Source: Bryobacterales bacterium (GTDB taxonomy: Bacteria; Acidobacteriota; Terriglobia; Bryobacterales; Bryobacteraceae). Taken from it: a stretch of DNA of 64,000 nt. Under the pieces are notes generated by a model. The model worked only from the letters and a program-made list of their open reading frames with translations, made no database searches and had not been told where the DNA came from. The position numbers and the translations under genes are program-made. Position 1 is the stretch's first letter. Each line of letters starts with the position of its first letter. The stretch is taken from assembly GCA_003164035.1 (NCBI GenBank), contig PLRS01000048.1, positions 1 through 64,000 of the forward strand. The letters are read 5' to 3'. This document shows positions 20,564-30,562 of the stretch, one piece after another.

Positions 20564-20800
20564 CCCTTGGTTGCGGCGACGCTGCGCTGCGGGGCAGCCA
20601 ATCATGGCTGCAGCCGCCTTTCAGGCGGCTCTTTCCTTCGCGCAGCTGCCCACCTATTTCGTGGAGGCTCCCCCGGTAAGGCCCGGCCGGTTTCGTTGCG
20701 GAAGATTGGTGAACTTTCGAATTTTACTTACCCAATTCGCTTCAACGGGTTACAAGCAACCTGCCCGCCCTTTTCGATCTGGGGGAAATTCGTCCCGGGA

Positions 20801-20885
20801 AACCGCTCCCTCGCGGTCGCGGCTCGGTAAGTGACTGAAAACACGTGGCACTCGTAACCGAGCTGCGACCGCGAGGGAGCGGTTT
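20801..20885. repeat. Palindromic repeat F1, best copy
   Basis: Arms AACCGCTCCCTCGCGGTCGC plus GGCTCGGT and the inverse ACCGAGCTGCGACCGCGAGG plus GAGCGGTT (one mismatch) enclose a loop of about 28 nt (AAGTGACTGAAAACACGTGG..). It serves as the reference for all F1 copies. Confidence 0.9.
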
Positions 20886-21076
20886 TCGCGCCTAAACTGT
20901 GAAATCCCCAGATCGGTTAAGCACGCGCCACGCCCCAACCTATGGTCACGCTGCACAAGAATGCACAAAAGTGACCAACTCAAGCCGGCCCATCGGCTCG
21001 GCCGCCGTTGGCTATTCGTTGGCCATTTTCGGAACAGCAACCGCCGGCAATGCGTTATTTAGGTAGAGATCTCGAT

Positions 21077-21271
21077 ATGGTGAAGCTCTTGCTCTGGTGT
21101 ATCTTGGCGGTGCTGTGCTGGCCGTTGGCGCTGGTCGCGCTGGTGCTCTATCCGTTGATTTGGTTACTGTTGCTGCCGTTTCGGCTGGTGGGAATCGCCG
21201 TCGAAGGGGCGCTGGGACTGGTAGTGGCGTTAATCACCCTGCCACTTCGAATGCTGCGCGCAATCGTATAG
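21077..21271 (+). CDS. Small hydrophobic membrane protein
   Basis: 64 aa, almost entirely hydrophobic, with two likely membrane segments (LLLWCILAVLCWPLALVALVLY and ALGLVVALITLPLRML) joined by a short basic loop (LPFRLVG). AGGTAGAG lies 9-16 nt upstream of the ATG at 21077; ATG 21050 is an alternative. No family recognised. It is convergent with the PilZ gene. Confidence 0.5.
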   Translation: MVKLLLWCILAVLCWPLALVALVLYPLIWLLLLPFRLVGIAVEGALGLVVALITLPLRMLRAIV

Positions 21272-21290: not shown

Positions 21291-21662
21291 CTAAACGTGC
21301 AGACGGAGATCCGCCCCGGCGTGGCTGAGCTGCGGTTGCGGCTGGCGGCCCATGGTGCGGAATTCGTAACGCTCGATGGCCACGGCGGCGCCTTTCTCGT
21401 TGCTACGAACGACGCAGCCGTAAATCATGAGCTTCATGGCGCAGGAGTCGTTGAGCAGGACTGGCCACGTCATAGACAGTTCAATGGGCATGCCGGTGGC
21501 AAGCATGCTATCCGTGGTGAACCAAACTCCGCCACTGGAAATATTGAGCGTACGACCCGTGCCGGTTTCGGCGATCCGCTGGCCGTACAGCATCTTGTAC
21601 CGCACTTCCTGTTCGATCTGGAAGCGGCGTTTCACTCGCCGCTCACGCTCGCCGTTGGTCAT
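21291..21662 (-). CDS. PilZ-domain protein
   Basis: 123 aa from ATG 21662. The c-di-GMP-binding elements are an arginine motif (RERRVKRRF) at the N-terminus and the NISSGGVWF motif (consensus D/NxSxxG) about 25 residues later, followed by the beta-barrel strand LMIYGCVVRSNEKGAAVAI. A receptor for cyclic di-GMP is likely; the REC-GGDEF protein at 14789-15784 is a possible source. The frame extends to 21800, but the extra 46 residues do not resemble PilZ. Confidence 0.78.
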   Translation of the reverse strand: MTNGERERRVKRRFQIEQEVRYKMLYGQRIAETGTGRTLNISSGGVWFTTDSMLATGMPIELSMTWPVLLNDSCAMKLMIYGCVVRSNEKGAAVAIERYEFRTMGRQPQPQLSHAGADLRLHV

Positions 21663-21899
21663 TGACCGCTCATCCTGTATTTCGATCACGGGCGTCACCT
21701 GTTTGCAAGATACCTTGCCGGAGCCGAATCCCTCAATATGTCTTTGGTTAGGCAGGTTTTCCGTACTGGCCCAGTACCGTGGTTCCAGCGGCAATTGCAT
21801 AAGTTACATGTTTGTAATAACTTACGCGTGGGATGGCGGTTAATGGGGACGGCCGGCAACGGGTCGTTTTCCGGGGGGAAAATATTTTGCAAAAATTAC

Positions 21900-21928
21900 T
21901 GGACAACAAGGTCTTAAATTGCTAATAT
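21900..21928 (+). promoter_or_regulatory. Strong sigma-70 promoter of the small-RNA candidate
   Basis: TGGACA (21900-21905), a 17-bp spacer, and TAATAT (21923-21928) preceded by TGC, which makes an extended -10. Five of six bases fit the -35 consensus and five of six the -10. Predicted start is about 21935. No open reading frame follows. Confidence 0.7.
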
Positions 21929-21934
21929 TAAATC

Positions 21935-22026
21935 AACACAGACAGCATCCCTGGCGGCGAGTCCCCTCCCGCCGCCAACCCCTCTGAGTGCAAGAGCCCC
22001 GAGTGATCCACTCGGGGCTTTTTCTT
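21935..22026 (+). ncRNA. Small-RNA candidate, about 90 nt
   Basis: The transcript predicted between the promoter at 21900-21928 and the terminator at 21995-22026 has no ATG and no coding potential. It folds into a first hairpin (GGCGGCG at 21953-21959 with CGCCGCC at 21970-21976) whose 10-nt loop AGTCCCCTCC contains CCCCTCC, complementary to Shine-Dalgarno sequences. A single-stranded AACCCCTCTGAG follows, then the terminator hairpin. This is the organisation of C-rich-loop regulatory RNAs that block translation starts. It lies between pilZ (divergent) and lptD (convergent). It is a prediction from sequence only. Confidence 0.65.
21995..22026 (+). terminator. Rho-independent terminator
   Basis: Perfect 11-bp stem AGCCCCGAGTG/CACTCGGGGCT with a 3-nt loop, followed by TTTTTCTTTTTT. 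It is oriented for plus-strand transcription; in the other direction no T tract follows, so it does not serve lptD. Confidence 0.92.
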
Positions 22027-22035
22027 TTTTCAAAG

Positions 22036-22107
22036 CTATCAGCGTTCAGCACTCAGCTTTCGAACTGCCTTGCGCGGTCGCGTTAGCCGACCGCTGATTG
22101 CTACTCA
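22036..22107. repeat. Dispersed repeat F6-related
   Basis: TATCAGCGTTCAGCACTCAG..and GCCGACCGCTGATTGCTACT resemble the words of 11641-11702. It overlaps the 3' end of lptD slightly. Confidence 0.45.
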
Positions 22108-27727: not shown

Positions 27728-30562
27728 TCAAAAGCTGAATTTCATCCCGATTCTCGCCAGAAAGGGGTTGATGGTGGCGCTGGGGCGCAGATAGTTCGAC
27801 CCGTAAGTGGTCACTTCCGAAACCACAGTCTGGCTGTTGGTGATGTTGAACAGGTCGAGCATCGGCTCTAAATGGTAGTGTTCCTTCCAGGTGAAGGTGC
27901 GCGCGACCCGCAGATCCAGCAGCTTCACGCTCGGCAGACGAATCATCCCGGCGGGCGCCAGCGCCACCGTCTCCGTTGTCTGCGCCAGTTCGGGACCCCG
28001 GAAGACTTCCGTGGGCCGGATGGGGTAGCCGGTCAAGTGCTGGAAATTGACGCTGGCGCGGAAACCAAACGGCAGGTTGTACGTACTGTCGGCTTTGAAA
28101 ACGTACGTCGCATCCATATTCAAATAGTTGTTCTGCCGGTTTATGTTCAGGTTGGGGTCGTTGAAATCGTCGCTGAGGGCCTCGTCCGAGCTGCCCAATC
28201 CATAGGTTCCCTTCTCGCGCTGCGCGGTGAACCCGGCCAACAACATCCAATGCTGCGACATCCGCTTGGTTGCGGTAAGCTCGATCCCGTTATAAGCTTC
28301 CGTATCCAGAGCGGGAATGTTCGTGATCAAGTAATTCGTCTTTCCCACCAGGGAAGGCGACAAGCTATATAAGTTCATCGCCTGACCGGTGAGCGGGTTG
28401 GTAATCGGGTTACCGTTCAGGACCGTAATCGGCGTGTAATCGGAAGCCGAGTGGTCCAGGTTTTCCCGCCCAATTAAGTCGCTCTTGTGCCGATGGTAGT
28501 AAGATGCGCTCACTACCAGGTTCTGCCATATCAGCCTTTGGATACCCACGGTGGTCTCGGTGGAATACGGCCGCTTCAGATTCGGATCGAGATGGGTGAC
28601 CACACCGCCGCTCTGAGCGATGAGGTTGGAAGGGCTGAGAAACCCGGTGGGGATTCCATTGGCGCCGATCGCTCCGTTCCAGGTGTACGTCTGTGAGTCG
28701 AGCCCGTTCGGATTAACGGCTTCGACCAGTTGCGTCCCCTCCATCAGATAGAACCGGCTATAACCGAAACGAAGCACCGTGTTCCCTTTGCCGGTCGGAT
28801 CGTAAGCGGCGCCGAGCCGCGGAGAGAGATTGTTCCAATCGACCAGGTTGCCCGACGCTTGATAAGTCGTCACCGGGTAGATCTGGGGCCAGGTCGGATT
28901 CTGGCTGGTCGATTCCTGCGGATAATAAGAGGTGAACCGGTCGTAGCGTATGCCCAGATTGAGTGTCAGCCGCCGCTTGATGGTCCAGGCGTCCTGTAGG
29001 AAGATACTGGCGTCGTTGAAGTAAGTGTATTCGGAAAAGGGGGTGTTATATACCACCACGTCCAGCGGCACGCCGCTCGAGTACTGTTCGTGGATGCCGC
29101 CGGTCATCGAGTAAATGTACGGGTTGCTGTTCTTGCCGATTTCGAAGCCGAACTTGATATCGTGGCTGCCTCCCATTCCGCCCTTGAACCATGAGAACGT
29201 CGGAGCGAACTTCCGCACCCAGGCCGGGTTGACGCGGTCGTAGGGGGCCGCGCCGGATTCGGTGGAAAGCGTTACGTCCTGCACCGTAATCGCTCCCGCC
29301 GCGGTGGTAGGCTGATAAGCCAGCGGGAACACTTCCTTGTTGTAGCCGAAGCGGAAGTCCAGCAGCAGGTTGCTGGTAATCTGGCTGGTCCACAGGCCCT
29401 GCAGTATATAAGCCGGCTCAATCTGCAGCCAGCTTGCATTCTGGTTGACAAAGGCATAGGAGGTGTCGCGGCGAAAGAAGCGGTTCTCTTCGTTATAGAG
29501 CCACACGAAGCTGGCGCGGTTGCGGCCGTTGACTTGCCAATCGCTGCGGGTGGAAGTATTGGTCTGGTGGTTGGCGTCCACCGTGGGCTGCCCGTCCTGT
29601 TGGCGCACCGAAAGCACGTCTTCGCGCAGATCGTAGCGCCGGTAAGATTGGAAAAGCCACCATCGGTTCTTGATGATGGCGCCGCCCACGTCGCCCGACA
29701 CGTCGCCATCGATCACGATCGGCGATCCGGGAGTGACCGCCGCGCCGTTGAACATCAGCGGCTGCGAACCTGCCTGCATCCCGGCCGTCGCGTAGTATGC
29801 CGCCACCTGGCCGTGCAGTTCGTTCGATCCCGACTTGGTCACCATGTTCATGTAGACTCCGCCGATCGGCACCGAAGCCGGGGCGTTGTCGGAAACCAGT
29901 TGGAATTCGTCGAACGAATCGTGATCGGTATAGAACTGCGTGTAACCGCCGTTGGAACCCGGCCAGTTCAGGTCCAGGCCGTTGAAACTGAACGACTGTT
30001 CGCCAGGCGTGCTCCCATGAACCTGCATGGTGGATTGCTGATAGCTTTGGTTGCCGCCCACGTCGAAGGTGCTGATAGCCGCGCCGGGCACCTGGGCCAC
30101 GGTGGACCACGGATCCCGGCCGCTCGGTATGTTCTGTAACAGACTCTGGTCGAAGGTGGTCGACCCCTCCGTTCCCTTCACATCCACGGCCGGCGCTTCC
30201 GACGTCACGTTGACGACGTCCGTCGCGGCGCCTACTTCCAACTTCGCGTTGATAGTCGCCGTAAAGCCCGCCGTCAGCACGACCCCGCCTTCGGAGAAAA
30301 GCTTGAACCCGACCGCTTCCGCCGTGACCTCATAAGTCCCCGGCGGCAGCAGGTCGAAAAGATAGCTTCCATCGCTTTGCGCCAGCGTGCTTCGTGGGCT
30401 CATCAGGGCGCTTCCTTTGGCCGTCACCTTTGCGTTTGGAACGACCGCTCCGGACGCGTCCGTTATGGTCCCCGTAACTTTTCCCGTGATCGCGGCTTGC
30501 GCGAATGCGAACCGAGCCGCGCAGGTCAACAGCAGAACGGCAACTCCCAGTGGTTTGGGCAT
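27728..30562 (-). CDS. TonB-dependent receptor with carboxypeptidase-regulatory-like domain
   Basis: 944-aa outer-membrane receptor. After the signal peptide (ending ARFAFAQ), residues about 25-110 form a CarboxypepD_reg-like domain (VTGTITDASGAVVPNAKV.. DGSYLFDLLPPGTYEVTAEA). A plug domain follows (about 115-240, SFNGLDLNWPGSNGG.., IGGVYMNMVTKSGSNELHG), then a beta-barrel ending ..PFLARIGMKFSF with the aromatic C-terminus required for outer-membrane insertion. The architecture is the Oar-like type abundant in Acidobacteria. GGAGGGG precedes the ATG by 2 nt. Confidence 0.88.
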   Translation of the reverse strand: MPKPLGVAVLLLTCAARFAFAQAAITGKVTGTITDASGAVVPNAKVTAKGSALMSPRSTLAQSDGSYLFDLLPPGTYEVTAEAVGFKLFSEGGVVLTAGFTATINAKLEVGAATDVVNVTSEAPAVDVKGTEGSTTFDQSLLQNIPSGRDPWSTVAQVPGAAISTFDVGGNQSYQQSTMQVHGSTPGEQSFSFNGLDLNWPGSNGGYTQFYTDHDSFDEFQLVSDNAPASVPIGGVYMNMVTKSGSNELHGQVAAYYATAGMQAGSQPLMFNGAAVTPGSPIVIDGDVSGDVGGAIIKNRWWLFQSYRRYDLREDVLSVRQQDGQPTVDANHQTNTSTRSDWQVNGRNRASFVWLYNEENRFFRRDTSYAFVNQNASWLQIEPAYILQGLWTSQITSNLLLDFRFGYNKEVFPLAYQPTTAAGAITVQDVTLSTESGAAPYDRVNPAWVRKFAPTFSWFKGGMGGSHDIKFGFEIGKNSNPYIYSMTGGIHEQYSSGVPLDVVVYNTPFSEYTYFNDASIFLQDAWTIKRRLTLNLGIRYDRFTSYYPQESTSQNPTWPQIYPVTTYQASGNLVDWNNLSPRLGAAYDPTGKGNTVLRFGYSRFYLMEGTQLVEAVNPNGLDSQTYTWNGAIGANGIPTGFLSPSNLIAQSGGVVTHLDPNLKRPYSTETTVGIQRLIWQNLVVSASYYHRHKSDLIGRENLDHSASDYTPITVLNGNPITNPLTGQAMNLYSLSPSLVGKTNYLITNIPALDTEAYNGIELTATKRMSQHWMLLAGFTAQREKGTYGLGSSDEALSDDFNDPNLNINRQNNYLNMDATYVFKADSTYNLPFGFRASVNFQHLTGYPIRPTEVFRGPELAQTTETVALAPAGMIRLPSVKLLDLRVARTFTWKEHYHLEPMLDLFNITNSQTVVSEVTTYGSNYLRPSATINPFLARIGMKFSF

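Follow-up and report, generated by a model that had tools for sequence, protein, structure and literature searches.

A predicted C-rich small RNA family of the Bryobacteraceae, apparently encoded on the strand opposite to Rfam Acido-1 and served by two promoter classes

Described small RNAs and the Acido-1 element

By 2010 Acido-1 (RF01686) had been described as a probable RNA of Acidobacteria, one that probably does not act as a cis-regulator (Weinberg et al. 2010, PMC2864571), and among the matches listed in a literature search on Acido-1 only that paper concerns this RNA; its passages on the family are without the promoters and the sigma-54 control described here. Passages on Neisseria NmsR describe a UC-rich linker and a loop partly complementary to Shine-Dalgarno sites, with two tandem siblings sharing 70% identity (PMC5362039). 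Qrr of Vibrio, GlmY/GlmZ of enterobacteria and Pxr of myxobacteria are presented as small RNAs with sigma-54 promoters (PMC10162802, PMC4211561, PMC5568312), some of them in several or tandem copies.

The locus studied here lies in the window, the whole 64,000-nucleotide stretch of a Bryobacterales genome that was analysed. Its family shares with NmsR a comparable C-rich linker and loop layout and tandem siblings, and the loop AGUCCCCUCC is likewise an unpaired C-rich segment complementary to Shine-Dalgarno sites; NmsR differs in belonging to another phylum and in having targets reported in its description, the likeness drawn here being one of layout. Sigma-54 promoters and multiple or tandem copies connect the family with Qrr, GlmY/GlmZ and Pxr, whereas the window copy itself lacks a -24/-12 promoter (GG-N10-GC, TGGCAC-N5-TTGC) and carries a sigma-70-type one instead. 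Homology with these RNAs was checked by one means, the Rfam scan. SuhB/mmgR, anti-hemB and the Betaproteobacteria toxic sRNA are C-rich small RNAs of proteobacteria, and their models match the hairpin and terminator layout on the plus strand with 16.3 bits (RF00519, gathering score 41), 18.5 bits (RF02837, gathering score 49.5) and a value within 16-19 bits (RF02278, gathering score 50). Membership in these three families was rejected, the scores being far under the gathering scores.

The first-pass annotation had proposed an unrecorded small RNA. The element is in fact on record, since Acido-1 matches it above the gathering score (Table 1) and is the sole match at gathering threshold in the window. 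Both descriptions concern the same DNA element, two hairpins with a conserved linker between them, the difference being that the RNA predicted here runs on the opposite strand: taken as its reverse complement, the RF01686 consensus corresponds to the segment that spans hairpin 1 through the terminator hairpin, while promoter, T tract and G-U bias all indicate the strand opposite to that of Rfam. The Rfam model (64 positions) also omits the 5' segment, including the conserved GCAUCCC and the 5' hairpin found in many relatives. It detects 47 of 150 family genomes at E<=0.001, 25 of the 150 above its cut-off, and 0 of 14 control genomes, with copies of the second subfamily described below mostly falling under the cut-off, except for one at 56.2 bits (G089:C368).

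On the evidence of the sequences compared, the window element is best taken as the true-strand version of Acido-1, and the family as one of Bryobacteraceae. The Rfam reference family appears to lie on the wrong strand, so that annotations derived from it would describe a probably non-existent antisense RNA. Once the strand is reversed, the element reads as a full small-RNA gene, with its promoter classes, its tandem copies and an enhancer-like motif for sigma-54; what the analysis adds is the strand correction, the whole gene and two systems of promoters. Acidobacteria would thereby gain a concrete, testable small-RNA regulator, at present a predicted one, and a test case for a small RNA switching promoter class.

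Gene anatomy, distribution and conserved structure

The anatomy, strand, structure, distribution and promoter classes of the gene were established by computation. Sequence and comparison both support what the first-pass annotation had suggested, an independent plus-strand small RNA that has a promoter and an intrinsic terminator of its own, and the individual elements named in that annotation were recovered (Table 1): a -35 and a -10 hexamer separated by 17 bp with TG ahead of the -10, a GC hairpin (GGCGGCG/CGCCGCC) whose loop includes CCCCUCC, and a terminator with a perfect 11-bp stem (AGCCCCGAGTG/CACTCGGGGCT), or 14 pairs if one G-U is counted, followed by a T tract. Its statements that the locus has no open frame and no plus-strand protein gene within 700 bp before the terminator also hold. 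Neither an AUG nor a closed frame occurs in the 92 nt, which excludes a coding small RNA, and the next plus-strand ORF, a small one, ends at 21271, about 720 bp away; nearer plus-strand ORFs, with ends up to 21843, are antisense to the minus-strand gene at 21291-21800.

Table 1. Features of the predicted small-RNA locus, in window positions
Feature	Position	Strand	Basis or remark
A/T-rich UP-like tract, 5' of the -35	21880-21899	+	putative role; certain positions are A-rich throughout the 58 aligned promoters of subfamily A
-35 element TGGACA	21900-21905	+	TRGACA in relatives, with T and GAC preset by the alignment pattern
17-bp spacer with conserved AGGTCTTAAATTG (consensus RGRTCYKAAAYTG), possible operator	21906-21922	+	subfamily-A promoter alignment
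-10 element TAATAT, extended TG upstream	21923-21928	+	sequence and promoter alignment
Predicted small RNA gene, about 92 nt	21935-22026	+	start predicted from the -10
Conserved unpaired motif GCAUCCC	21945-21951	+	CATCC counts in both subfamilies
Hairpin 1	21953-21976	+	stem 21953-21959/21970-21976, loop AGUCCCCUCC at 21960-21969
Linker CCCCUCUGAGUG, predicted mostly unpaired	21979-21990	+	CTCTGA counts, alignments
Intrinsic terminator hairpin	21992-22022	+	sequence; covariation
T tract TTTTTCTTTTTT	22019-22030	+	T-rich in relatives too, often interrupted
Rfam RF01686 (Acido-1) match	21953-22022	-	same element on the other strand; 55.4 bits, gathering score 50

Promoter-like sites number 3 per 3 kb around the locus against 1.1 in shuffles, and terminator-like sites 5 in the same 3 kb against 3.1, so promoter and terminator taken alone are weak evidence for a gene. 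Because these matches barely exceed the regional chance level, relatives were needed as the deciding evidence, and a chance promoter or terminator is excluded by conservation in them. The 92-nt RNA has a folding energy of -44.2 kcal/mol (z = -6.0), which none of 200 shuffles equalled.

A BLAST search with the locus hit 91 of 200 family genomes at E<=0.1, with short matches to other repeats making up many of the weakest hits, and an exact-pattern scan of named genomes returned 51 records, all acidobacterial by title, with 35 titled Bryobacterales, Bryobacteraceae, Solibacter or Solibacteraceae. Near-full-length filtering and removal of duplicates retained 103 of 145 nhmmer hits; of the 58 cmsearch matches, spread over 39 loci, two that scored 15 bits were excluded. 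The covariance search in Acidobacteria that had been proposed as a check found a family: a model of 44 diverse copies, window included (R1), places the gene in 103 of 237 Bryobacteraceae genomes, spread over 47 of 76 genera, at E<=0.001, a count that includes training sequences, with no match in the other 134 of the 237. The window copy scores 91.1 bits with R1, of which it is a part. A model built from the second subfamily only, with the window left out (R2), recovers the window copy independently at 53.2 bits and finds the gene in 97 of 257 genomes of the order, the matching genomes listed being all Bryobacteraceae. Within a phylum sample of 396 genomes, 15 match including the window's own, and the other 14 score 22.7-30.4 bits; read at the exact match, CTCTGAG is found in 0 and GCATCC in 1 of these 14. 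They are taken as chance stretches and not as homologues outside Bryobacteraceae, since the conserved linker is missing. Copy number in relatives ranges from 1 to about 5, frequently with a tandem arrangement. A second copy was sought in the window's genome and rejected, the next matches having E-values of 0.16 and 0.91.

Lack of hairpin conservation in relatives had been named as an outcome that would speak against a small RNA; instead, the hairpins covary. In the R1 alignment, 96.6% of cells are paired and 14 of 17 pairs are changed on both sides, compared with a shuffled mean of 5.4 and at most 7 when partners are slid. Hairpin 1 has 99.1% of its cells paired and 6 of 8 pairs changed on both sides, and the terminator hairpin has 8 of 9 pairs so changed. 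The R2 alignment, which includes the 5' hairpin, shows 21 of 25 pairs changed on both sides (shuffled 12.6, slid at most 12).

Subfamilies, promoter classes and strand

The copies fall into two subfamilies. Subfamily A, which includes the window, has the loop AGUCCCCUCC and is without a 5' hairpin, whereas in subfamily B the loop is of the CCCAG type and a 5' hairpin is usually added, its own loop being mostly UCAU. CATCC ahead of hairpin 1 is shared by both (56 of 61 A copies, 75 of 81 B copies), as is the linker motif CTCTGA (58 of 61 and 55 of 81), while the linker motif GCCCCT marks B (78 of 81 copies, compared with 2 of 61 in A). Three divergent B copies (L214, L231, L232) have an altered 5' hairpin (TTAGTC...GACTAA) and the loop CCTAG, which makes them useful for covariation.

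One promoter motif with a conserved spacer fits 58 of 61 subfamily-A copies, the remaining 3 being unmatched, under a pattern with T, GAC and the -10 A preset. At spacer positions left free, a C and one A are present in 58 of 58 aligned promoters and a G in 54 of 58. Besides the -35, the -10 and the spacer (RGRTCYKAAAYTG), A-rich tracts upstream are conserved, and the extended pattern, allowing up to 2 mismatches, has a single occurrence in the 8.0-Mb genome, namely the window site. Such conservation could reflect a regulator specific to the family or a promoter of unusual strength. Promoters were scored after excluding 2 of 142 distinct copies with missing upstream sequence. A sigma-70 score of >=8/12 was reached on the plus strand by 59 of 60 subfamily-A copies and a score of >=9/12 by 37 of 60, as against 8.9% of mononucleotide shuffles.

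Sigma-54 sites scoring >=7/10 precede 43 of 61 B copies with a 5' hairpin, compared with 2.6% of mononucleotide shuffles and only 2 of 60 subfamily-A copies. Between the -12 GC and the 5' hairpin lie 17-25 bases, and 18-20 in 34 of 45 copies, one of the 45 distances (L207) being a false positive; the 5' hairpin therefore lies close to the transcript start. B copies sorted as lacking the hairpin reach a sigma-70 score of >=9/12 in 14 of 19 cases compared with 7.3% of shuffles, this group including two copies (L228, L237) with 5' hairpin and sigma-54 site that the automatic sorting misplaced. At three loci (L205:957-1358, L206:738-1145, L209:1043-1504), a copy without a sigma-54 site (sigma-70 7-8/12) is followed by a near-consensus sigma-54 copy.

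The half-site TGGGTG/CACCCA occurs upstream of 34 of 44 sigma-54-class copies, a non-redundant set with at least one chance-caught A copy (L026) among them, as opposed to 7 of 98 others and 4.6 in shuffled sequence (maximum 10), and 46 of 48 half-sites fall in the bins -120 to -51 relative to the -24 element. The degenerate dyad YGSGYG-N8-CRCSCR was counted 9 times in the 44 regions, compared with 0.1 in shuffles and once in the 98 others; with a 4-bp gap, the same half-sites were counted 4 times, compared with 0.1 in shuffles and 3 in the 98. From this spacing and enrichment we infer that the motif upstream of B copies is an enhancer site for an activator protein. RpoN is present in 13 of 13 family genomes, among 21 genomes searched. 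A gene for an enhancer protein beside the copies was sought by its motifs and rejected, with one motif match in 252 loci (L092).

The RNA gene very probably lies on the plus strand, which is favoured because promoters, head-to-tail arrays, T-rich tails and G-U bias agree. Tandem neighbours within 600 nt form 95 pairs on the same strand and 0 opposed, a count that takes in overlapping records of redundant loci, and T-rich tails, often interrupted, follow the second hairpin in relatives. An A-C at a paired column on the plus strand equals a G-U on the minus strand, and the plus-strand ratio of G-U to A-C is 14:1 in hairpin 1 in alignment A1 and 21:4 in alignment A3, two alignments that have some sequences in common; the 5' hairpin gives 14:1 in A3. 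For the terminator hairpin, the ratios of 10:10 (A1) and 27:13 (A3) are neutral to mildly favourable, and the neutral A1 value is probably due in part to alignment shifts. A functional G-rich Acido-1 RNA on the minus strand, the orientation given by Rfam, could draw on that equality in A1 and on the ability of both hairpins to fold on either strand. It is nevertheless highly improbable, given that promoters, sigma-54 sites and T tract all suit the plus strand, that the bias reaches 14:1 in hairpin 1 and in the 5' hairpin, and that the Rfam model stops short of the conserved GCAUCCC and the 5' hairpin.

Candidate mode of action and genomic surroundings

The best explanation overall, to which we give about an even chance (roughly 0.5), is a trans-acting, C-rich plus-strand small RNA that lowers translation. 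In this model, with expression and its level, Hfq use, pairing and targets all inferred, a sigma-70-type promoter would drive an RNA of about 92 nt that its own terminator ends. The RNA would most likely act in trans, probably with Hfq, and the unpaired C-rich GCAUCCC, the CCCCUCC loop and the linker CCCCUCUGAGUG would pair with G-rich mRNA stretches at or near translation starts, reducing translation of those mRNAs. In many genomes copies appear to be activated by sigma-54 and an enhancer-binding protein, and the family may thereby relay a regulated signal to mRNAs. The genome itself encodes Hfq (94.9 bits, G000:C45:94069-94254). Two weak Hfq-like matches of about 26 bits (cut-off 27) were also recorded in it (C93:76560-76706, C9:54372-54542).

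The pairing test used 437 predicted starts from 720,823 bases, about 9% of the genome, with crude start calling (a Shine-Dalgarno-like motif in 20% of starts and 9% of controls) and a binding threshold set at the energy met by 2% of internal, within-gene controls. The loop binds 17 of 437 start regions (3.9%), compared with a mean of 1.5% and a maximum of 3.2% for scrambled loops, and it binds 15 of 436 stretches 80-110 bases upstream of starts (3.4%); its mean energy at starts, -7.1, is weaker than upstream (-7.6) and internally (-7.4). The 5' motif binds 3.7% of starts against 2.5% upstream (scrambled mean 1.6%, maximum 3.9%), and the linker 1.6% against 1.6% (scrambled mean 1.4%, maximum 3.0%). 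Across these 437 genes, none of the three segments clearly prefers starts over upstream sequence. The first-pass proposal of an anti-Shine-Dalgarno loop is a possible reading that the pairing test does not uphold: AGUCCCCUCC is C-rich and complementary, and CCCCUCC is kept in subfamily A, but starts are not clearly preferred over upstream sequence. As a general feature of the family the loop fails, subfamily B having a CCCAG-type loop, and a single loop target common to both subfamilies is unlikely because the loop differs between them. TonB receptors were rejected as a target class, being unsupported on 8 genes (loop p = 0.32, 5' motif p = 0.47, linker p = 0.03 uncorrected).

Base pairing in trans is moderately probable, as the unpaired C-rich segments suggest, and pairing with mRNAs serves as the working explanation. 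Ribosome-binding sites as the main targets are a tentative and somewhat doubtful proposal, the odds being lowered because the upstream control nearly equals the starts. That absence of a general start-region preference would fit an RNA that mainly reaches a small set of particular mRNAs by way of the shared CAUCC and the CUCU-containing linker, both kept in the two subfamilies while the loop changes; with about 9% of the genome examined and a target not found there, this is rather unlikely. It would equally suit a plus-strand decoy with recurrent C-rich loops that capture a protein partner of RNA (Hfq, a cold-shock protein) or a different small RNA instead of mRNAs, since short C-rich segments recur in one molecule, gene copies are tandem, and a number of copies carry the CCCAG loop in both hairpins. 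The motifs, however, sit in differing settings and not as uniform repeats, and a decoy is unlikely. A broader form of the trans-acting reading, doubtful as it stands, would make the family a main regulator of Bryobacteraceae that moved between two promoter systems and throttles many mRNAs through several C-rich segments. One system would then combine sigma-54 with the 20-bp enhancer dyad, roughly TGGGTG-N8-CRCSCA; the other would be sigma-70-type, its spacer bearing an operator that is specific to the family and has no second occurrence in the window's genome, and the response might be to a nutrient or cell-density signal.

A survey of neighbours at 238 loci, overlapping records included, found the divergent upstream protein in 69, lptD in 26 and the small ORF in 48. 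The LptD match exceeds the cut-offs. The divergent neighbour (minus strand, 21291-21800), present beside many subfamily-A copies, has a weak PilZ likeness of 19.8 bits (cut-off 22.5). These neighbourhoods could suggest a cis effect on the divergent PilZ-like gene or the convergent lptD, either of which the transcription unit might insulate or repress: genes for the PilZ-like protein and LptD stand next to many subfamily-A copies, and an LptD gene adjoins a single B copy (L216). Such an effect is very unlikely, as the other B copies examined stand in varied gene contexts and the unpaired motifs are kept, which cis insulation would not need. Varied contexts suit a trans-acting RNA, the preferred reading.

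Several further features of the surroundings were recorded. The B copy L216 (G033:C12), which has a sigma-54 site and adjoins lptD, the typical neighbour of subfamily A, is a possible link between the two subfamilies. The plus-strand small ORF at 21068-21271 (67 aa from an inner ATG) is without a Pfam match, has tblastn similarity in 48 of the 238 loci, and is possibly a conserved small membrane protein. GGAGGGG, cited in the first-pass annotation, is present directly before the predicted start codon (30562, minus strand) of a TonB-type outer-membrane receptor of 944 aa at 27728-30562. An inverted repeat at 20800-20885, MITE- or REP-like, has 29-nt arms that are 97% complementary around a 28-nt middle; it has at least 79 matches in its own genome, corresponding to at least about 40 places with both palindrome orientations merged, a lower bound from scoring 40 of 508 first-look candidates. 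Right after the terminator, at 22032-22060, lies the repeat CAGCGTTCAGCACTCAGC, which BLAST finds elsewhere in the same genome and in many relatives.
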